DNA of 51,080 bases, from contig JACQFZ010000031.1 of assembly GCA_016199745.1 (NCBI GenBank), positions 1 through 51,080 on the forward strand, in the 5' to 3' direction. The stretch is from Gammaproteobacteria bacterium. Lineage in GTDB: Bacteria > Pseudomonadota > Gammaproteobacteria > Acidiferrobacterales > Sulfurifustaceae. Below, piece after piece: positions 2,260-12,005 of this stretch (position 1 is the stretch's first letter; every line of letters begins with the position of its first letter). The notes beneath the pieces were generated by a model that saw only the letters and a program-made list of their open reading frames with translations, was not told the origin of the DNA and did not search any database. The position numbers and the translations under genes are program-made.

Positions 2260-2823
2260 ATGCCTAACACCGACCGACTAGGAGGGCACCATGTCAAAAA
2301 ACTCGCACGCCCGGCATCACGGATGGTTCTTTTTGCGATAAACACCGGACTGCGGGATAGCTGCGTGTGCGGATTAATGTGGCAGTGGGAAATTGCCGTA
2401 CCGGAAGTCGGCAGAAGCGTATTCGTGATACCACGAGAAGCGTTCAAGTCCAACCGATCGCACGTAGTGATACTGAACGACGTGGCATGGTCGATCGTGC
2501 GGACCCATCGCGGAAAGCATCCGATCTGGGTGTTTCCGTACCATGGGCGGCGAGTTAATCACATGAACAATACCGCGTGGAAGCTCATGCGCGCACACAC
2601 GGGCTTACATGCCGTTCGCATCCATGACTTTCGCCATACGTTTGCCACCCGCCTGCGCGCCGCCGGCGTATCGGCGGAAGATAGGAATGCGCTGCTTGGG
2701 CATTCGAACAACTCCATGGCGGATCACTACGCCAGTGTCGATATCGGACATCTGTTGATGCAGGCGAATCGGATTTTGAATCGAGCGGCAACACGTACGG
2801 TGTTACGTGTCGCTAATGGCTAG
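2260..2823 (+). pseudogene. Tyrosine recombinase (integrase), C-terminal catalytic part only
   Basis: The frame encodes the catalytic domain of a phage/island integrase. The first Arg is in NTGLRDSCVCGLMW, the HxxR box is HDFRHTFATRL, the GH pair is in LLGHSNNSMADHYA, and the Tyr nucleophile is in the same segment. The N-terminal arm-binding and core-binding domains (roughly 150-200 residues) are missing, so the gene is very probably inactive. It points toward and ends 72 bp from the 3' end of tRNA-Lys, the usual position of an integrase beside its attachment site. Confidence 0.75.
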
Positions 2824-2895
2824 TCGGACGAGCTGTGGATAAAGGGTCCCGCAGGCAGAAATTATGAATTTCTGTGGGTTGTAAGTCATTGAAAG

Positions 2896-2971
2896 TGGTG
2901 GGCCGTGCGTGAATCGAACACGCGACAAACTGGTTAAAAGCCAGCTGCTCTACCGACTGAGCTAACGGCCC
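2896..2971 (-). tRNA. tRNA-Lys (anticodon UUU)
   Basis: Read on the minus strand, the 76 bases fold into a standard cloverleaf. The acceptor stem is GGGCCGT paired with ACGGCCC, the D-arm contains AGCTCAGTCGGTAGAGC, the anticodon stem-loop is CTGGC-TTTTAAC-CAG with anticodon TTT, and the T-arm contains GTTCGATTC. The discriminator base is A, and the 3' CCA is encoded. The 3' half of this gene is a likely island attachment site, given the integrase remnant directly beyond it. Confidence 0.95.
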
Positions 2972-3260
2972 ATAGGGGATGGGCAACAAAAAGAGCGCGG
3001 ATTATCCAGGGGGCATTAAGGGCTGTCAAACGGTAATCCTTTGCCTTTCGACAGGCGCGGGGCCCGTTTATGGCATTACCTCCGTGGAGTGCCAAAAAAC
3101 CGCGATAATAGCGGCAAAAACAGCATCAGTGCCGAGCCGCCGCGCACCACAACACCTCCCTTCTTTGGGCCGGCAACTCATTGACTATTCCTCTCGATAA
3201 AAGAGCTCAGAGTACATGCCAGCGGGCCTGCCCCTCTTACTCCTCCTTCCAATACATTCG

Positions 3261-3288
3261 TTTTAAGGAAAACTACTCAGCGAAAAGC
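3261..3288 (+). repeat. Leader element copy 1 (diverged)
   Basis: The copy reads TTTTAAGGAAAA, then ACTACTCAGCGAAAAGC. It shares the TTAAGGAAA core and the AGCGAAAAGC box, at the same spacing, with the copies at 3513 and 5332. Confidence 0.5.
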
Positions 3289-3424
3289 AATAGAAACTTA
3301 GCGGTCAAGTCGCGAACATCAAGTACATCAGTATCAAGCGTGCCGCGTCCTGCCCTTAAAATTTTCTCCTTAACCAGCGGGTAACTTTAGTCAAGACCAG
3401 CACTACTGGCCCTTTTTTTCGCCT

Positions 3425-3460
3425 CCCTTAAGGAAACCACTAACGCAAAAAAGGCAGCGG
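3425..3460 (+). repeat. Leader element copy 2 (diverged)
   Basis: The copy reads CCCTTAAGGAAACCACTAAC, followed by GCAAAAAAGGCAGCGG. The CTTAAGGAAA core and the CACT box are conserved; the AGCGAAA box is altered. Confidence 0.5.
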
Positions 3461-3512
3461 TCTCGCAACACGTGTCGATCAAACTATGTCAAGGCACGAT
3501 CGTTCTAAGGCG

Positions 3513-3578
3513 TTTCCTTAAGGAAAGGCACTGAGCGAAATCAGGCTATAGCTGTTGTAGCATCGCGACGCTCTGACT
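3513..3578 (+). repeat. Leader element copy 3, with a perfect 14-bp palindrome
   Basis: TTTCCTTAAGGAAA at 3513-3526 is a perfect palindrome. It is followed by GGCACTGAGCGAAA, and after a gap by GTTGTAGCATCGCGACGCT. The copy at 5332 conserves both flanks over about 65 bases. It lies about 80-150 bp before the first CBM6 start codon, so a promoter, operator or 5' UTR role is plausible. Confidence 0.6.
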
Positions 3579-3660
3579 CATCAATACAACTGCCCTTCTC
3601 GTTGATGAGGTATCAATTTTTCCGTCCACAGTCTGTGCCATTACATGGAGGTCGTTTGTT

Positions 3661-5247
3661 ATGCCAAAAATATTAAGAACGTCTAGGGGGGTTGGGACTA
3701 CCGCGCTACTTGCGGTGCTTGCGAGTCTACCGTCAGCTGCGTTCGCAAACCCATACATACAGTTCAATAACTTTATTCCGGGGATTGTCGAGGCGGAACG
3801 GTTTGAAGACGGCGGCGAAGGTGCCGCCTATCACGACCTCACTCCCACCAACGAACCGGGGGCCTTCCGTCCTGGCGGCGTCGATATCGAACAGACGTCG
3901 GATGTCGGAGGAGGTTATGACATCGGTTGGGTGAAACCCGGCGAATGGCTTAACTACAGCGTGATGGCTCACGTCGACGGGCGCTTTTCGATCGGTGTTC
4001 GGTATGCCGCGCAAGGAGACGGCGGCAAGATGCACATCGAGCTCGATGGCGTGAATATCACCGGCACACTCAATCTAACCGACACCGGCGGCTGGCAGAA
4101 ATGGAAAACGTTGTGGGTTCACAATATTCCTATCACGACTTCTGCTAATTCCATGCGCCTCGTATTCGACAGCGGCAACACTCAAGGCTGGTTGGCGAAT
4201 ATTAATTACGTCGAGTTCCGTAATCCGAACGATCCGTATGTTCCCTATTCCGGCCACATACCTTTGGTTCCGGCCAGGGTACAAGCGGAAAACTTCACTC
4301 GAGGCGGCGAGGGCATCTCTTATCACGACAGCACGCGGAGAAACGAGCCGGGCCAATACCGCGTCAACGAAGGCGTGGATATCGAGCAGACAACCGACGC
4401 TGGTGGTGGTTACGACGTCGGCTGGGTGACTCCCGGTGAATGGCTACAGTACATCGTACGCCCGACTCGCTTTGGCTCTGTAACGGCCAAAATTCGTTAC
4501 GCCGCCAAAGGCTTCGGTGGAATCATGCATATCGAGCAAGGCGGAGTTGACATAAGCGGCCCCATCCAGCTTCCAGACACCGGCGGCTGGCAGACATGGC
4601 GAACGGTGGAGACAAAACCGATGACCGGCCCGTGGGGTCCCATGCACCCTGACTACCCACACGAATTTCGTCTCGTCTTCGATAGCGGCAATCCAGAAGG
4701 TTGGCTCGCCAATATCAATTGGGTGCAATTTAATGACGCCCGTGACAGTTATCAAGGGGGTGATCACTTCCCTTATCTTCAAGGGCAGCACGAAGCGGAG
4801 CACTTCGACTGGGGCGGCGAAGGTGTTGCTTATCACGACACGACGGAAGCAAACGAGCCGGCCGGATTTCGAATCGCTGAAGGGCCGGATATCGAGTTCA
4901 CGTCCGACGAGGGTGGCGGCTTCGATATCACTGGGATCAAACCTGGCGAGTGGCTGGAATACACCAAGCTCGTGTTTCCGACCAATAACTACGCCGGAAT
5001 TTACACCTTCGAAATCCGCTACGCGTCCCTTGGCGACGGCGGCACCATGCATATTGAGTTCGATCGCGCCGACAAAACCGGGCCGATCCAGCTGACCAAT
5101 ACCGGCGGCTGGCAGACCTGGAAGACCATCACCATCCGCGACGTACACCTCCCCGCAGGTGCCGAAAAAATGAGGCTTGCGTTCGATCGCGGTAACACGC
5201 AGGGCCGGCTCGCCAACATCAATTGGGTGCGGATAACTGAACAATAG
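3661..5247 (+). CDS. Secreted protein of three CBM6 carbohydrate-binding modules
   Basis: The 528-residue protein has a signal peptide (about 1-29, ending PSAAFA) and then three family 6 carbohydrate-binding modules at about 38-187, 206-357 and 376-524. Each repeats the same series of landmarks: an AE(R/N/H)F segment, GGEGxxYHD, DIExTxDxGGGxD, GxxxPGEWLxY, a TGGWQxW aromatic site and a terminal (W/R)LANIN(Y/W)V strand. CBM6 modules bind beta-glucans, xylans or related glycans. No glycosidase, anchor or dockerin is visible, so it would act as an exported lectin-like binder. The start at 3661 is supported by ATGGAGG upstream, a leader shared with its paralogue at 5484. The second module has a Pro-rich insertion near 320-335. 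Confidence 0.85.
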   Translation: MPKILRTSRGVGTTALLAVLASLPSAAFANPYIQFNNFIPGIVEAERFEDGGEGAAYHDLTPTNEPGAFRPGGVDIEQTSDVGGGYDIGWVKPGEWLNYSVMAHVDGRFSIGVRYAAQGDGGKMHIELDGVNITGTLNLTDTGGWQKWKTLWVHNIPITTSANSMRLVFDSGNTQGWLANINYVEFRNPNDPYVPYSGHIPLVPARVQAENFTRGGEGISYHDSTRRNEPGQYRVNEGVDIEQTTDAGGGYDVGWVTPGEWLQYIVRPTRFGSVTAKIRYAAKGFGGIMHIEQGGVDISGPIQLPDTGGWQTWRTVETKPMTGPWGPMHPDYPHEFRLVFDSGNPEGWLANINWVQFNDARDSYQGGDHFPYLQGQHEAEHFDWGGEGVAYHDTTEANEPAGFRIAEGPDIEFTSDEGGGFDITGIKPGEWLEYTKLVFPTNNYAGIYTFEIRYASLGDGGTMHIEFDRADKTGPIQLTNTGGWQTWKTITIRDVHLPAGAEKMRLAFDRGNTQGRLANINWVRITEQ

Positions 5248-5262
5248 TGAAATTGCTTTGCG

Positions 5263-5294
5263 AAAGGCCAGCTGAATACTGGCCTTTCTTTTTT
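5263..5294 (+). terminator. Intrinsic terminator of the first CBM6 gene
   Basis: The 9-bp stem AAAGGCCAG / CTGGCCTTT has a short loop and is followed by CTTTTTT. A nearly identical hairpin recurs at 7818-7851. Confidence 0.9.
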
Positions 5295-5331
5295 CGATCC
5301 GACAAGTACCCACAATATAAAGTGTGAGGAG

Positions 5332-5397
5332 TTTCCTTAAGGGAACCCACTAAGCGAAAAGCGGCGACAGTCGTTGTAATGTCGCGACGCTTGACGC
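5332..5397 (+). repeat. Leader element copy 4, upstream of the second CBM6 gene
   Basis: The copy starts TTTCCTTAAGGGAA and continues CCCACTAAGCGAAAAGC, then GTCGTTGTAATGTCGCGACG. Alignment by eye with copy 3 shows conservation over about 65 bases, including the downstream GTTGTA...TCGCGACGCT block. It sits about 90-150 bp before the 5484 start codon, the same offset as copy 3 has from its gene. Confidence 0.6.
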
Positions 5398-5483
5398 GGG
5401 GACGCAACCGTCCTTCTTGTCCACGCGCCATTTTCACACCCTTCTCTTAAATTTTCCGTGGCACTCACATGGAGGTTATTGTC

Positions 5484-7061
5484 ATGCCAGAGATTTCGAG
5501 AGCCGCCGGTCGAGTCGCGATTATCGCGCTACTTTTGACCGGCGTCCTTTCATCCACCGTTGCAATCGCTGCCCCTTATCTACGCCAACCCAATTACATT
5601 CCCGGGATTCTTCAAGCAGAACGATTCGATGAAGGTGGCGAAGGTGTCGCCTATCACGACAGCACGATCAAAAACGAACCCGGCCAATTTCGCGCAGAAA
5701 GCGTCGACATCGAGAAGACGGCGGATTGCGGTGGCGGTTACGACGTCGGCTGGGTAACGCCGGGTGAATGGTTGCAATACAGCGTGCGAATTGACGTCGA
5801 CGGACAGTATGCGATCGGCGTGCGCTATGCCGCGAAAGGATACGGCGGGCAGATTCATATCGAAGCGGACGGTGCAAACGTCACCGGCCCAATTGATTTG
5901 CCGGATACCGGCGGCTGGCAAAGATGGCAGACGTTATGGGTGAATGACATTCCATTATCGCAATATAACCAGACGCTACGCGTCGTGTTCGATAAAGGCA
6001 GTGCCGAAGGTTGGCTAGCGAATTTCAACTTCATCGAAATTCGCAACCTGCACGATCCACAACCACCCTTCAGCGGCTACGCGCCACTGCTGCCCGCCAA
6101 GGTGCAAGCAGAAAAATTCGACAAAGGCGGCGAAGGCGTCGCCTATCACGACAGCACGCCGCAAAACGAGCCGGGTAAATATCGCGTCAAGGAGGGCGTC
6201 GATATCGAGCGCACCGCCGATAGCGGTGGCGGTTACGATGTCGGCTGGGTCACGCCCGGCGAATGGCTCGAATATACGTTACGCAACAATCGCAACGGCT
6301 TTATCACCGCGCAGATACGGTACGCGGCAAAAGGTCCGGGCGGAACGATGCACATCGAGCTCGACGATACCGACATCACCGGTCCCATTGAGTTAGCGGA
6401 TACCGGCGGCTGGCAAACCTGGAAAACCGTCGAGGCCCGTTTGAATACCTTGTCACCGCTACACCCGGGCGGACTCATTACCCCGCGCCTGGTATTCGAC
6501 AACGGCAACCCAGAAGGCTGGCTCGCCAATATCAACTTCGTGCAGATCAACAACGTGCGTGAAAATTATCCGGAGAATGAAAACACGCCCTACTTAGAAG
6601 CGCAGTTCGAGGCCGAGCATTTCGACTGGGGCGGCGAAGGCGTCGCCTATCACGATACGACCGAGGCGAACGAGCCGGGCGCATTCCGATCGTCCGAAGG
6701 CCCGGATATCGAAGTCACGCAAGATGAAGGTGGCGGCTTCGACGTCGGTTGGATCAAGCCCGGCGAGTGGTTGTTGTTCACGACGTACCACCCATTCGAT
6801 GACGTTGAGCTTTATACCATCGAAGTCCGTTACGCCTGCCTTGGTGACGGCGGCACTATGCATATCGAATTCAATGGCGTTGATAAAACCGGACCCATCG
6901 AGCTGACGAACACCGGCAGTTGGAAAACATGGAAGACCATCACCATTCCAAACGTTCCGCTCGCCGTCGGTGCCGCCGACATGCGACTCGCTTTCGATCG
7001 CGGTAACGCGCAAGGCTTGTTGGCGAATATCAATTGGGTGCGGATAACCGGGCAACGATAA
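5484..7061 (+). CDS. Secreted triple-CBM6 protein, paralogue of the preceding gene
   Basis: The 525-residue product has a signal peptide (about 1-29, ending VAIAA) and three CBM6 modules with the same landmarks as its neighbour: GGEGVAYHD three times, GEWL three times, GGWQ twice (GSWK in module 3), and WLANIN or LLANIN at each module end. There is no catalytic or anchoring domain. A start 15 bases earlier is open, but the ATG at 5484 keeps the ATGGAGG leader as ribosome-binding site, exactly as in the upstream paralogue. The pair is clearly a tandem duplication that took its regulatory leader with it. The substrate cannot be told from sequence; secretion and glycan binding are inferred from the family. 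Confidence 0.85.
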   Translation: MPEISRAAGRVAIIALLLTGVLSSTVAIAAPYLRQPNYIPGILQAERFDEGGEGVAYHDSTIKNEPGQFRAESVDIEKTADCGGGYDVGWVTPGEWLQYSVRIDVDGQYAIGVRYAAKGYGGQIHIEADGANVTGPIDLPDTGGWQRWQTLWVNDIPLSQYNQTLRVVFDKGSAEGWLANFNFIEIRNLHDPQPPFSGYAPLLPAKVQAEKFDKGGEGVAYHDSTPQNEPGKYRVKEGVDIERTADSGGGYDVGWVTPGEWLEYTLRNNRNGFITAQIRYAAKGPGGTMHIELDDTDITGPIELADTGGWQTWKTVEARLNTLSPLHPGGLITPRLVFDNGNPEGWLANINFVQINNVRENYPENENTPYLEAQFEAEHFDWGGEGVAYHDTTEANEPGAFRSSEGPDIEVTQDEGGGFDVGWIKPGEWLLFTTYHPFDDVELYTIEVRYACLGDGGTMHIEFNGVDKTGPIELTNTGSWKTWKTITIPNVPLAVGAADMRLAFDRGNAQGLLANINWVRITGQR

Positions 7062-7121
7062 AAAATTTCGCGGCGCGTTAGCTCTTTCTTCGCCCGCCCT
7101 ACTTACAGGGGAGAGCTGAAG

Positions 7122-7247
7122 ATGGAAACGGTTGCAAGGATGGCTCATTGCGCCGATGTACCTCCTCACAAAGCAAAACCAATCTGCTTTGGCCACAAAA
7201 GGTGTGTGTACACGTGCGCAGTTTTGTATGCCGAGTCCACTCTCTGA
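7122..7247 (+). CDS. Possible small Cys-rich ORF of 41 residues
   Basis: A GGGGAGAG ribosome-binding site lies about seven bases before an ATG that opens 41 codons with four cysteines (MAHCADVPPHK, ICFGHKRCVYTC). I recognise no family. It stands alone in an otherwise gene-free stretch (7062-7410) upstream of a terminator, so it may be real, but length and context give weak support. The rest of that stretch shows nothing recognisable. Confidence 0.2.
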   Translation: METVARMAHCADVPPHKAKPICFGHKRCVYTCAVLYAESTL

Positions 7248-7410
7248 GCAGCCCGTCTCTAGGTAATTATCCTTAGGCTAAATGTCTTAACAGCAAAGAT
7301 GATTGATAGTTGTAGTTTGAATCCTGAGTATTCGCAGATAACGAAACATGACTCGAGTACTTAGCCTCGATTTCCGAAATAATACGGAGCAACAGAGTCA
7401 GCAATATTTA

Positions 7411-7439
7411 CCGGACCGCTGGATAGCGGCCCGTTTTTT
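7411..7439 (+). terminator. Probable intrinsic terminator
   Basis: CGGACCGCT pairs with AGCGGCCCG (one mismatch) around a GGAT loop and is followed by TTTTTT. No convincing gene directly precedes it; it may end the second CBM6 transcript or a lost gene. Confidence 0.65.
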
Positions 7440-7450
7440 GATGATGCATT

Positions 7451-7578
7451 AACACCGGCAGTTGGCAAACATGGAGGTAGTTATGTACGAAGCTTCGCAT
7501 ATTAACTTACCCGACGATCAATCGGTCGCCCCCGAGCAATCAACAACCGTGCGACATCGCCGGCAATTACAATGGTAG
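7451..7578 (+). pseudogene. Recombination scar: CBM6 coding fragment fused to a CBM6-type leader
   Basis: Bases 7451-7475 differ at one position from 6909-6933, the part of the second CBM6 gene that encodes NTGSWKTW. They run directly into ATGGAGGTAGTTATG, which resembles the ribosome-binding leader of both CBM6 genes. The ATG at 7483 opens only 31 codons (starting MYEASHINLPDDQS) and ends at 7578. I infer that a third related gene once stood here and was removed by deletion between short identical stretches (ACATGGA). Confidence 0.45.
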
Positions 7579-7799
7579 TAAGCGGTTTCTTTTATAACGA
7601 CAAAAAATTGATCACGCTTCAATATCCAGGCAGCAGATCCACCTACGTAACCGGCATTAACGACCATGGCACTATTGTCGGCTACGCGATTCTGTTCGAC
7701 GAGTCGGTACAGGGCTTCATTGGGAAACCGCGCAAGGGCGACGGCGTCGAATGGTTTCACCAACGACGCAGCGTCCAAGCCGAACGCCGTGCATCATGA
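7572..7799 (+). pseudogene. Fragment of a HAF-repeat exported protein
   Basis: The 75-residue frame begins with one and a half units of the HAF-type beta-propeller repeat: GFFYNDKKLITLQYPGSRST, then YVTGINDHGTIVGYAILFD and GFIG. Complete proteins of this kind have many such repeats and a signal peptide. Here there is no signal peptide, and after about residue 52 the frame loses similarity, so this is a remnant. A terminator nearly identical to that of the first CBM6 gene follows. Confidence 0.45.
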
Positions 7800-7817
7800 C
7801 CAAACTGTAATAAATCA

Positions 7818-7851
7818 AAAGGCCAGCTCAACGCTGGCCTTTCTTTTTCTA
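7818..7851 (+). terminator. Intrinsic terminator, copy of the 5263 hairpin
   Basis: AAAGGCCAGC pairs perfectly with GCTGGCCTTT around a TCAAC loop and is followed by CTTTTTCT. It separates the accessory block from queC, which runs the other way. Confidence 0.9.
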
Positions 7852-7878
7852 AACAATCACAACAATTTTAATTTCACG

Positions 7879-8568
7879 TCACTGATACGGCGTCGGGTCC
7901 GGCACACCGGCGGCGGCAAAACCCTGCGCGCGTAGACGGCAGGAGTCGCACACGCCGCAAGCGCGCGCCGATACATCCGGGTTGTAGCACGAGAGCGTAA
8001 GCGCGAAGTTCACCCCTAACCGCGCACCGCTACGAATGATGTCGGCCTTGGGCAGGCTGACCAGCGGCGCACGCACGGCGATGCCGCGACCCTCGATGCC
8101 GGCACGGGTCGCAAGCGTCGCCATTTGTTGAAACGCTTGCAGATATTCCGGCCGGCAATCGGGGTAACCGGAATAATCGACGGCATTGGCGCCGATATAG
8201 ATAGCCTCGGCATCGAGCACCTCGGCCCACGCCAACGCCAACGACAGAAAAATAGTATTGCGCGCCGGCACGTAGGTGACCGGAATACCGACACTCGGCG
8301 CATCGGGGACCGATATCGTCGGGTCGGTCAACGCCGAACCGCCGATCCACGACAAATCGAACCGCGCGACGCGATGCTCGACAGCACCGAGCGATTGCGC
8401 GGCGCGGCGCGCGGCGTCGAGCTCGAGGCGATGGCGTTGACCGTAATCGATTGTAAGCGCGAAACAGGCACCGACTTCCGCGCGGGCAATGGCCAAGGTC
8501 GTGGCGGAGTCGAGACCGCCGGACAACAGCACGACAGCACGACGATTGTCAGCGGCCACGTGCGTCAC
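7879..8568 (-). CDS. queC: 7-cyano-7-deazaguanine synthase QueC
   Basis: QueC converts 7-carboxy-7-deazaguanine to preQ0 with ATP and ammonia, in the queuosine pathway. The 229-residue protein has the ATP-pyrophosphatase loop [10 protein letters not shown] near the N-terminus and a C-terminal zinc-binding set, a Cys in LSCYNPD and then CGVCDSC. Length fits the family. The start is a GTG at 8568 inside the end of queE, a 20-bp overlap implying translational coupling. QueE, which makes its substrate, is the adjacent upstream gene. Confidence 0.95.
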
Positions 8569-9241
8569 CCCAGAGTATCTTGTGCAACTGCAACTGCATC
8601 CGTACCGACAATCGATCGGCCAATATCCAATCGGCGAGGTCGCCTGGTTTGATTTGCCCGTACGATGGCGAGAACAATACTTCGCTGCGTTCGCTCAGAT
8701 GATGCTGCTGTACCTGCGCGCGACTCCATTCGTAGTCGGCACGATCGCAAATGACGAACTTAACTTGGTCTTTGCGCTGCAACAGCGCGATATTGACGTA
8801 GCGATTGCGATCCTCTTCTTTCGAGCCCGGCGTTTTTAAATCCATGACGATGCTGACACGCGCATCGATGTCGGCGATGTCGAGCGCGCCGCTCGTTTCC
8901 AACGACACTTCGTAGCCCTGCGCCGCCAATTGCGCCAACAGCGGACGGCACGCGGGTTGCGCAAGCGGCTCGCCGCCGGTAACGGTCACGTATCGCGGTC
9001 CGTAGCTCGCGATTTGCGCCAGGATTTGGTCCAACGTCATCCACTCGCCGCCGTGAAAGGCGTACGCGGTATCGCAATATTGGCAACGCAACGGACACCC
9101 GGTGAGACGCACAAACACCGTCGGCAAGCCGACCGTACGCGCCTCGCCTTGTAGCGAGTAAAAAATTTCCGTGATACGCAACCGCGTATCGGCGGACGGC
9201 GCCGGTGAGTGGGTGGAATCAGCAGCGATCGTTGTCGTCAT
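8549..9241 (-). CDS. queE: 7-carboxy-7-deazaguanine synthase QueE
   Basis: QueE is a radical-SAM enzyme that contracts the ring of carboxytetrahydropterin to 7-carboxy-7-deazaguanine. The protein shows the cluster motif CPLRCQYC (Cys 49, 53 and 56, CX3CX2C) and the SAM-binding VTGGEPL. The 230-residue length is normal. It follows the cpoB end after about 100 bases and overlaps queC, making a two-gene unit at the end of the tol-pal cluster. The N-terminal 20 residues before [13 protein letters not shown] are variable. Confidence 0.95.
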
Positions 9242-9347
9242 GGGTGTGCGCCGGGAGGTCGAAAACGGCGATTGATTATACCGGACTAGTGCGAGTTGCC
9301 GCTGCCATCGGCGAAGAAGTTAACGGCGGGAGCGCATTACCTACTAA

Positions 9348-10154
9348 TTACCGACCCTCTTGGGTCAGCTTAGTGAGCCGAAGCTCGGCCGCTTTCGACG
9401 CGGTCGTATTGGGGTAGCGTTTGACCACGTCCTTCAGCGCCTCACGTGCCTTGCCATAAGCACCGAGCTCGTAATGCGTATACCCGATCTTGAGCAACGC
9501 ATCGGCCGCCTTTGGGCTTTGCGGAAAATCGCTGACGACCTTACCGAAGCCATCGAGCGCGCCACGGAAGTCGCGCATGACGTAGGCGGTCTCGCCGACC
9601 CAGTACTGAGCGTTGGCGGTCAAGGGGCCTTGCGGGAAACGGCTGACATATTCGCGAAAGCTCTTACCGGCCTGCTCGTACATGCCTTGCTTCATCTGCG
9701 CAAATGCGGCGTCGTACTGCTGCTGCTCGGCAGCGCTTGGTGGGCTAGCCGGCGCCCGTGTCGCCGGCGGCGGTGTGCCGGCCACGGGTGCTGTCGGTTC
9801 CGATGTGTTTGCTGGATCGCTGCCGCGGCGTTCGAGCTCGCGCAAGCGCTTATCGAAATCGGTTAGCGAATCGCGATAACGAATCTTCAACCGATCGAGC
9901 TCATGCTCGGTCGTCTCCTGCTGATCGCGCATTTCACGCAGCTGCGTCTGCAACGCCTCGACCTCGGTATAGAGCTCGACCAGCTCTTGCCGTTGGGTGC
10001 GAGGCGGTGCCGCAGCCGGCGCCGGCACGTTATCGGCCGGCGCTGTCGGTGCTGGCGCCGGACGCCGATCCGGAAGATCGGCGGCGACAGCGGCACCAGC
10101 AACGACAATTGCGAACGTTAGGACAGCAACGCGTTGGCAGCGAAGCAAAAACAT
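9348..10154 (-). CDS. cpoB: Cell division coordinator CpoB (YbgF)
   Basis: CpoB is a periplasmic partner of the Tol system that coordinates outer-membrane constriction with septal peptidoglycan synthesis. The 268-residue protein has a signal peptide (about 1-25, ending AAVAA), a Pro/Ala-rich linker, a coiled-coil trimerisation segment at about 50-95 and three TPR-like repeats at about 145-260 (YDAAFAQMKQGMYEQAGKSF, AQYWVGETAYVMRDFRGALD, ALLKIGYTHYELGAYGKARE). It begins directly after the pal stop codon. Confidence 0.93.
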   Translation of the reverse strand: MFLLRCQRVAVLTFAIVVAGAAVAADLPDRRPAPAPTAPADNVPAPAAAPPRTQRQELVELYTEVEALQTQLREMRDQQETTEHELDRLKIRYRDSLTDFDKRLRELERRGSDPANTSEPTAPVAGTPPPATRAPASPPSAAEQQQYDAAFAQMKQGMYEQAGKSFREYVSRFPQGPLTANAQYWVGETAYVMRDFRGALDGFGKVVSDFPQSPKAADALLKIGYTHYELGAYGKAREALKDVVKRYPNTTASKAAELRLTKLTQEGR

Positions 10155-10682
10155 TTACTGATATATGAATTCCACGCGACGGTTGAACGCCCACGCTTGT
10201 TCGTCATGATCGGCGTTGAGCGGCTTTTCTTCGCCGAACGACACGACGTTAACGCGATTGCCGGTAACACCGAGCACACGCAGCAACTTCTCGACCGACT
10301 GCGCACGACGCTCGCCGAGCGCTAAGTTGTACTCGCGCGTTCCACGCTCGTCGCAATGGCCTTCGAGCTGAACCTTGACATTCGGGTTGGCAACGAGATA
10401 ACGGCCATGGGCCTCGATGATCTTGCGCGCTTCTTCATCGAGCGTGCTGGAATCGAACGGGAAATGTACGCGCCACTCGGCCGGGCGCTCACTGCCGCCG
10501 GCCTGCGGAATCGATTCACCGACCGCTTCGTTCTGCGCTGGTGCAGAACCGGTATCGGCGCCGGAACCGGTGCTCCCGTCGGTGCCGTCCTGGCCCGGGG
10601 TGTCCGTCTTGGTACTGCTAGCGCAACCGCCGAGCCCGATCGCGGCCACCAATAAAACTACTAGTTCGAACTGTCGTTTCAT
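10155..10682 (-). CDS. pal: Peptidoglycan-associated lipoprotein Pal
   Basis: Pal anchors the outer membrane to peptidoglycan and binds TolB. The 175-residue product has a lipoprotein signal with lipobox LGGC (Cys at about 19), a Gly/Ser/Thr-rich linker and an OmpA-like domain. The peptidoglycan-binding stretch is EGHCDERGTREYNLALGERR. A GGAGG ribosome-binding site precedes the start. It lies between tolB and cpoB in the conserved order. Confidence 0.96.
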   Translation of the reverse strand: MKRQFELVVLLVAAIGLGGCASSTKTDTPGQDGTDGSTGSGADTGSAPAQNEAVGESIPQAGGSERPAEWRVHFPFDSSTLDEEARKIIEAHGRYLVANPNVKVQLEGHCDERGTREYNLALGERRAQSVEKLLRVLGVTGNRVNVVSFGEEKPLNADHDEQAWAFNRRVEFIYQ

Positions 10683-10703
10683 GCTTCCTCCTAAAAATTG
10701 AAA

Positions 10704-12005
10704 TTAACGGTTGTACGGTGACCATGCCGGCTCGCGGACGTCGGCCGTTTCGAGCCGAAAAGTTTGACGCACTCGACCGTCGATCGATACCGACGCGAGC
10801 GCCCCCTGCCCCCGGACTTCGGTAGCATACAGTATCATCCGGCCATTAGGCGCAAACGTTGGGGATTCGTCGAGCGGTGTGTCGGTCAAGACCTGCAGCG
10901 TCCGGTCGTCCAGGTTTAGGGTAGCAATATGAAACTTCCCTTGCACCCGGCTAACCAACGTCAGGCTGCGGCCGTCGACGGCATACGAGGGCCGCGCATT
11001 GTAATCGCCATCGAACGTCAGCCGCTGGACTTGACGACCGTCGGCGTTCATTCGGTAGATCTGCGGCCGGCCCGAGCGATCCGAGGTGAAAACGAGTTGG
11101 CGCCCGTCCGGCGACCACGACGGCTCGGTATCGATAGCCGGGTCGTTGGTCAGACGCGTCAGCTGTCGGGTGGCAAGGTCGAGCACGAAAATATCGGGAT
11201 TGCCTTCCTTCGACAACTGCAGCGCCAACCGCCGACCATCCGGCGACCAGGCCGGCGCGCTGTTGATGCCTTTGAATTCGGCCAGCAACTCGCGCCGCTG
11301 ATTGGCGACATTCTGCACGTAAACCTTCGAACGCTTATCCTCGAACGAGACATAAGCGATACGCTCGCCATCCGGCGCCCACGCCGGCGACATCAACGGC
11401 TCGGCCGAGCGAACGATGGAGATGGGATTGTAACCGTCGGAATCCGCCACCTGCAGCCGGTAGATCGACTTCTTCGGCCCGGCGTTCTCGCGCGTGATGT
11501 AGGCGATGCGCGTATTGAACGCGCCGGGTTCGCCGGTCAACTTTTCGTAGATGACGTCGGATATTTGATGACCGACGGTGCGCAGCATCGAGGCGTTGAC
11601 GGTGTACTGCAAACCGGCAAGCTCTTTCTGCTTGAACACGTCGAACAACTGGAACCGCACTAGATAACGCCCGGGCCCAGCGGGCGCGACGCTACCAATG
11701 ACTAACGCCTCAGCTTTGACAAAGCGCCAATCTTTATAGACAACTTCACGCTCTTCGATCGGACGCGAGGCGAACTCCTTGCGATCCAAGGTGGCGAACC
11801 GACCACTGCGTCCAAGATCGGCCTCGACCACATCCGACACGACCTGCGGCGGCGCGGTTAGACCGGCCCAACCGAATGGGACAATGGCGATCGGGATGCC
11901 GCTCTCTTCGCTCTTGGTGAGCTCAAGGGTAAGAATTGCATGCGCCGGCATCGAGCAAGCCAGCAGCAGCGCCATCGAAATTAAGACTCTAAATTTTTTC
12001 ATCAT
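10704..12005 (-). CDS. tolB: Tol-Pal system periplasmic protein TolB
   Basis: TolB links Pal to the inner-membrane TolQRA motor. The 433-residue protein has a signal peptide (about 1-23, ending MPAHA), an N-terminal alpha/beta domain and a six-bladed propeller whose blades repeat PxWSPDGxxIAY-like motifs (SPAWAPDGERIAYVS, APAWSPDGRRLAL, EPSWSPDGRQLVF). Length and start are typical. It lies 9 bp after tolA. Confidence 0.96.
   Translation of the reverse strand: MMKKFRVLISMALLLACSMPAHAILTLELTKSEESGIPIAIVPFGWAGLTAPPQVVSDVVEADLGRSGRFATLDRKEFASRPIEEREVVYKDWRFVKAEALVIGSVAPAGPGRYLVRFQLFDVFKQKELAGLQYTVNASMLRTVGHQISDVIYEKLTGEPGAFNTRIAYITRENAGPKKSIYRLQVADSDGYNPISIVRSAEPLMSPAWAPDGERIAYVSFEDKRSKVYVQNVANQRRELLAEFKGINSAPAWSPDGRRLALQLSKEGNPDIFVLDLATRQLTRLTNDPAIDTEPSWSPDGRQLVFTSDRSGRPQIYRMNADGRQVQRLTFDGDYNARPSYAVDGRSLTLVSRVQGKFHIATLNLDDRTLQVLTDTPLDESPTFAPNGRMILYATEVRGQGALASVSIDGRVRQTFRLETADVREPAWSPYNR

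Follow-up and report, generated by a model that had tools for sequence, protein, structure and literature searches.

We identified four related copies of a leader core, all on the + strand, at positions 3262, 3427, 3517 and 5336 of a 51,080-nucleotide stretch of Gammaproteobacteria bacterium DNA (hereafter, the window). Copies 3 and 4 precede two CBM6/CBM35 genes, together with which they were duplicated; they are conserved above the level of fourfold-degenerate sites and show compensating changes in one hairpin, and copies 1 and 2 are degenerate (Table 1). The explanation that we favor, with moderate confidence, is a structured 5' leader that acts near the ribosome site and is found in a partly decayed tandem array.

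Under this explanation, the repeated unit would consist of a leader, a CBM6/CBM35 gene and a terminator, with copies 3 and 4 as structured 5' leaders of the two genes that survive. Each leader is predicted to contain a short palindromic hairpin (H1), a larger stem (H2) and a 9-bp hairpin (H3) with a conserved 15-base loop, followed by a weak hairpin covering the Shine-Dalgarno site, whereas copies 1 and 2 would be leaders left behind by the loss of putative former genes. The leader segment is presumably transcribed and could set mRNA stability or ribosome access, for example, through opening or closing of the Shine-Dalgarno hairpin, with a small RNA (sRNA) or protein bound to the H3 loop.

Table 1. 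Features of the leader-gene locus, with positions counted from the first nucleotide of the window
Feature	Position	Strand	Remarks
Copy 1, degenerate leader core, no gene behind	3262..3285	+	pattern match
Terminator-like relic between copies 1 and 2	3393..3421	+	resembles gene 1 terminator
Copy 2, degenerate leader core, spacing broken, no gene behind	3427..3477	+	gapped pattern
Leader of gene 1 (copy 3)	3507..3660	+	
Copy 3 proposed stems	H1 3513-3517/3522-3526; H2 3533-3537/3569-3573; H3 3577-3585/3601-3609	+	
Copy 3 proposed RBS hairpin	3632-3637/3644-3649	+	
Gene 1	3661..5247	+	528 aa, three CBM6/CBM35 stretches
Intrinsic-terminator-like site 3' of gene 1	5262..5293	+	
Leader of gene 2 (copy 4)	5326..5483	+	
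Copy 4 proposed stems	H1 5332-5336/5341-5345; H2 5352-5356/5388-5392; H3 5395-5403/5419-5427	+	
Copy 4 proposed RBS hairpin	5455-5460/5468-5473	+	
Gene 2, paralogue of gene 1	5484..7061	+	525 aa, three CBM6/CBM35 stretches
Relic: CBM6 coding fragment joined to leader end (ACATGGAGGTAGTTATG)	7451..7485	+	
Second terminator-like site	7818..7848	+	90% identical over 31 bases to gene 1 terminator

The original prediction described four copies sharing a core, with a box at fixed spacing behind it. The four copies, TTTAAGGAAAACTACTCAGCGAAA (copy 1, two mismatches to the 24-base pattern), CTTAAGGAAACCACTAACGCAAA (copy 2), CTTAAGGAAAGGCACTGAGCGAAA (copy 3) and CTTAAGGGAACCCACTAAGCGAAA (copy 4), are indeed related, but the exact CTTAAGGAAA is limited to copies 2 and 3, the equivalent being TTTAAGGAAA in copy 1 and CTTAAGGGAA in copy 4. 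Likewise, the fixed core-to-box spacing holds in three of the four copies but not in copy 2, where the spacer is shorter by one base and the box reads ACGCAAA instead of AGCGAAA. The perfect palindrome ascribed to copy 3 is present (TTTCCTTAAGGAAA, 3513-3526); none of the other three copies has all 14 bases of it intact, and copies 2 and 4 still keep CCTTAAGG. The distance from the core to the start codon is 144 bases in copy 3 (ATG at 3661) and 148 bases in copy 4 (ATG at 5484). At up to three mismatches, the 24-base pattern matches the window three times, compared with no match in 100 shuffles.

The products of genes 1 and 2 are 64% identical and are probably exported sugar-binding proteins; by eye, the hydrophobic N-terminal stretch of the gene 1 product resembles a signal peptide. 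The start of gene 2 is placed at 5469 in the open reading frame (ORF) list, and the gene 2 start that corresponds to that of gene 1 is 5484. A single alignment of 3508-5244 with 5327-7055, at 69% identity, takes in both leader and gene; copies 3 and 4 and the genes behind them are the result of tandem duplication as one piece. Between the two genes, dS is 1.42 to 1.63 and dN is 0.25, indicating that the proteins are under selection and that silent sites are near saturation, and 86 of the 168 fourfold-degenerate sites (51%) are identical.

Against this level, the leaders stand out in blocks. The long block common to the copies nearest the genes, as originally predicted, is borne out, with 52 of 69 ungapped columns identical in leader columns 1-70 (75%, compared with 51% at fourfold sites; Fisher p 4e-4, uncorrected, with block boundaries picked by eye). 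The block begins abruptly, with only AGG-GTTTC aligning 5' of it. The Shine-Dalgarno patch is identical at 12 of 13 positions, whereas the spacer in columns 104-138, at 15 of 30 (50%), behaves like silent sites. Thus, columns 1-70 and the Shine-Dalgarno patch, both above the fourfold level, point to selection holding the leader in blocks, unless gene conversion hit the leader alone.

The clearest indication of a fold comes from H3, which lies 3' of the block described in the original prediction. Its arms are identical at 3/9 and 5/9 positions between the copies and its loop at 11/15, and despite the divergence of the arms, eight of the nine pairs are kept, four of them by double changes affecting both sides, with the one broken pair in copy 4. 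In the MAFFT alignment, five pairs have changes on both sides (four in H3 and one in the inner H2 stem), a count matched in 18 of 500 shuffles. RNAalifold assigned the two leaders a consensus energy of -29.5 kcal/mol, against a column-shuffle mean of -14.3 (sd 3.6), and 1 of 1000 shuffles was as low. The other fold tests gave values from 0 to 60 per thousand, and the conservative ones among them, including the 18 of 500 above, are modest. Specifically, permutation of the substitution targets over the full leader reached the observed value in 1/500 cases with copy 3 fixed and 30/500 with copy 4 fixed, and over the first 108 columns, in 7/500 and 9/500, respectively; permuted positions did so in 0, 0, 4 and 2 of 500, and permutation of the H3 pairs alone in 300 to 1081 of 20000. 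Paired cells amount to 95.7%, compared with 33 to 52% in six slid registers, for a structure derived from the same two sequences. Pairing retained despite two-sided changes, the mark of a structured 5' leader RNA, is accordingly seen in a pair of sequences, and this apparent covariation comes mainly from H3.

The remaining stems vary less or agree less. H1 shows a single, one-sided change, and the outer H2 stem is invariant in the MAFFT alignment, with one double change if a gap is shifted by one column. In the inner H2 stem, part of the covariance model that we built from copies 3 and 4 (R1), one pair is broken in copy 3, and neither consensus fold includes this stem. The full-length consensus fold has H3 and the Shine-Dalgarno hairpin, without H1, and the consensus of the first 108 columns includes H1. 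Folded alone, copy 3 has H1, the outer H2 stem and H3 at its lowest energy; copy 4 lacks H3 and forms H1 together with the inner H2 stem and an outer stem in shifted position, whose CGCTT arm pairs with a second AAGCG further on. For the Shine-Dalgarno hairpin, the energy is -3.7 kcal/mol in copy 3, a weak value, and -7.6 kcal/mol in copy 4.

Inspection by eye further suggests that the CCUUC of the H3 loop could pair with GGAGG in both copies. By a hand estimate, about one in six random 15-base loops offers pairing of this type, so the anti-Shine-Dalgarno role is only an idea. We therefore advance tentatively, as a rather unlikely elaboration, a lineage-specific cis-regulatory RNA that would control translation of exported sugar-binding proteins, in which the H3 loop, CAAC-N-G-N-CCUUCU, would serve for recognition or anti-Shine-Dalgarno pairing, and which would have been copied with its genes as the array expanded and shrank.

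Alignment of the two leaders to the copy 1 stretch gave scores reached by 1 and 2 of 2000 dinucleotide shuffles, and to the copy 2 stretch by 0 and 0 of 2000. With leader 4, both copies score 40, compared with 38 for the best off-locus stretch of the window, and with leader 3, both score 36, compared with 37. Because off-locus stretches score about equally, the assignment of copies 1 and 2 is based on the short core and its position, not on longer similarity. The rest of leader 4 aligned to 3286-3400 no better than shuffled sequences (271/2000). With filters off, R1 gave 13 matches in 2820-8000 up to E 10, with copies 3 and 4 at the top; copy 2 matched in the sense direction at 2.8 bits, and copy 1 did not appear on the + strand. 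The best match after copies 3 and 4 was antisense over copy 2 (3362-3442, 11.9 bits, E 0.046), which we take for the palindrome read backwards.

The sequence between the copies nevertheless resembles parts of the repeated unit. The stretch at 3393-3421 aligns to the gene 1 terminator with a score reached by 0 of 2000 shuffles (36, compared with 30 for the best off-locus stretch), and in the relic downstream of gene 2, the CBM6 fragment shares 24 of 25 bases with the sequence at 6909. With a terminator-like relic between copies 1 and 2 and a terminator-like copy after the downstream relic, the order leader-terminator-leader is the same as that from gene 1 to gene 2. From this order we infer that the locus may be an array of leader-gene-terminator units that have lost genes, with the proviso that terminators are alike by nature. 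A fixed-form terminator pattern had no matches because the loop lengths differ. No coding remains of gene 1 were detected in 3286-3425, 3445-3510 or 7062-7450 (120, 199 and 187 of 300 shuffles, respectively), and the end of the gene matched 3290-3400 weakly (53/2000 shuffles). The idea of a regulator array of three stacked copies before gene 1 is thus not upheld, because copies 1 and 2 are degenerate, do not show the fold and flank a terminator-like relic, as expected of a decayed gene array; the companion proposal of a repeated 5' UTR structure survives for copies 3 and 4, on two sequences with paired changes in H3, but not for copies 1 and 2.

We then consider the core as a DNA element. In the 4.26 Mb genome, the 24-base pattern (up to three mismatches) found the same three matches at the locus and nothing else, and a gapped pattern covering copy 2 likewise gave three matches, all at the locus; the reversed-pattern controls gave 0 in both cases. 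One looser pattern had 19 matches in the genome, three of them at the locus, compared with 27 for its reversed control, and a second had 52 compared with 56; this second pattern fitted both leaders without a mismatch and a single further place with two. R1 recovered copies 3 and 4 alone in the genome up to E 10, and blastn of leader 4 up to E 10 gave 11 matches, the best off-locus one being 29 bases at E 0.33. A genome-wide regulon is unsupported, given that the core patterns are absent outside the locus, and the suggestion that the core might precede other exported-protein genes found no site beyond the locus. Promoter prediction over 2820-7900 yielded no sigma-70-like call on the + strand and four on the opposite one, a number equal to the mean of shuffled sequences. 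Resemblances to sigma-54 and ECF promoters and to integron attC sites, judged by eye, were a poor fit.

A DNA operator or promoter, in which CTTAAGGAAA-N2-CACT-N-AGCGAAA is bound by an unusual sigma factor or a regulator of local range, with copies 1-3 cooperating 5' of gene 1, would fit the position of the core within the abruptly beginning, best conserved long block, its being the part that copies 1 and 2 retain, the palindrome that is perfect in copy 3 and persists in part in copies 2 and 4, and the lack of a sigma-70-like call. We nevertheless consider it unlikely: an operator of a transcription-factor regulon would be expected before other genes, and no such site was found in the genome; the palindrome is imperfect in three of the four copies; and the conservation that extends across H2, the loop of H3 and the ribosome site, as well as the paired changes in H3, would be left unexplained. 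DNA operator and RNA leader roles could, in addition, exist side by side. Still less probable, in our assessment, is that the similarity is a functionless remnant of gene duplication that will fade. Copies 3 and 4 do derive from such a duplication, the rest of the array has decayed, and R1 detected no leader in relatives (see below), but a mere remnant, the outcome that the original prediction had named as its refutation, would not account for columns 1-70 exceeding both the fourfold sites and the adjacent spacer, nor for pairing kept in H3 while its arms diverged. Gene conversion confined to the leader could produce the 75% identity, though not the H3 pairing.

The structured-leader explanation has precedents. 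Riboswitches, RNA thermometers and sRNA targets include structured 5' leaders by which the ribosome site is concealed or made accessible. The leaders described here are similar in having proposed hairpins ahead of a gene, a conserved loop and a Shine-Dalgarno hairpin; they differ in matching no Rfam family at threshold and in being known here from a single locus. The ompA mRNA is stabilized by a 5' hairpin leader, and the present leaders can be likened to it, by description, in having a hairpin that may lie near the mRNA 5' end and in preceding a gene for a probably exported protein. In a search with Rfam covariance models, tRNA-Lys alone reached threshold and the leader gave no such match (for example, suhB at 12 bits compared with 41), in agreement with the original statement that no named element matches. 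The leader is therefore best read as a known kind of element, a structured 5' leader RNA, without an Rfam family at the gathering threshold. If it is a working RNA element, it would illustrate how a regulatory RNA can arise and be multiplied alongside its gene within one lineage, and would offer a small system for observing selection on a fold within a single genome; otherwise, the locus would be a decayed gene array of the ordinary type, in which the upstream region is conserved.

At E 0.01, R1 detected no leader in overlapping samples that comprised 56 further genomes from the order, 368 from the class and 397 from the phylum; stricter filters applied above 40 genomes. An exact pattern scan of viral contigs and blastn against phage and plasmid records (E 0.1) likewise detected no leader, and a literature search, covering its sources in part, returned no paper with the palindrome. 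Relatives of the array proteins were found in 2 of 59 other genomes (E 0.001) and in 3 of 368 others (E 1e-30), in 25 plasmid records (from Haloarcula and others, with identities of 28 to 38% among the ten matches listed) and at one actinobacterial locus (30%); none was confirmed in viral contigs. A 1165-aa ORF with three CBM6 stretches on contig 71 of G000 (L012 2963-6460) shares 39 to 40% identity with the array proteins, and R1 found no leader there.

The array lies at 3035-7889, between tRNA-Lys (2899-2971) and queC. In a genome of the same genus (G001) and one of the same family (G004), both flanks lie next to each other, 1.2 to 1.4 kb apart, with no array match; in window coordinates, the tRNA-Lys flank runs up to 3034 or 3031 and the queC flank from 7890 or 7874. 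Thus, as far as sampled, the array is lineage-specific. In G001, the gap is filled by an ORF of 383 codons, which by eye we take to encode a YeeE/YedE-type membrane protein. A tyrosine-integrase-like ORF of 187 aa (2260-2823) adjoins the 3' end of tRNA-Lys, and G001 has an integrase-like ORF, identified by eye, at the same place (L073 4146-5315), suggesting a shared integration site. GC content in 1-kb windows is 0.50 to 0.57 in 2501-8000, 0.59 to 0.62 in 8001-11500 and 0.55 to 0.58 beyond. Finally, a short ORF at 7572-7799 carries a GINDHGTIVGY motif reminiscent of HAF-type extracellular repeats, and is perhaps a gene fragment.
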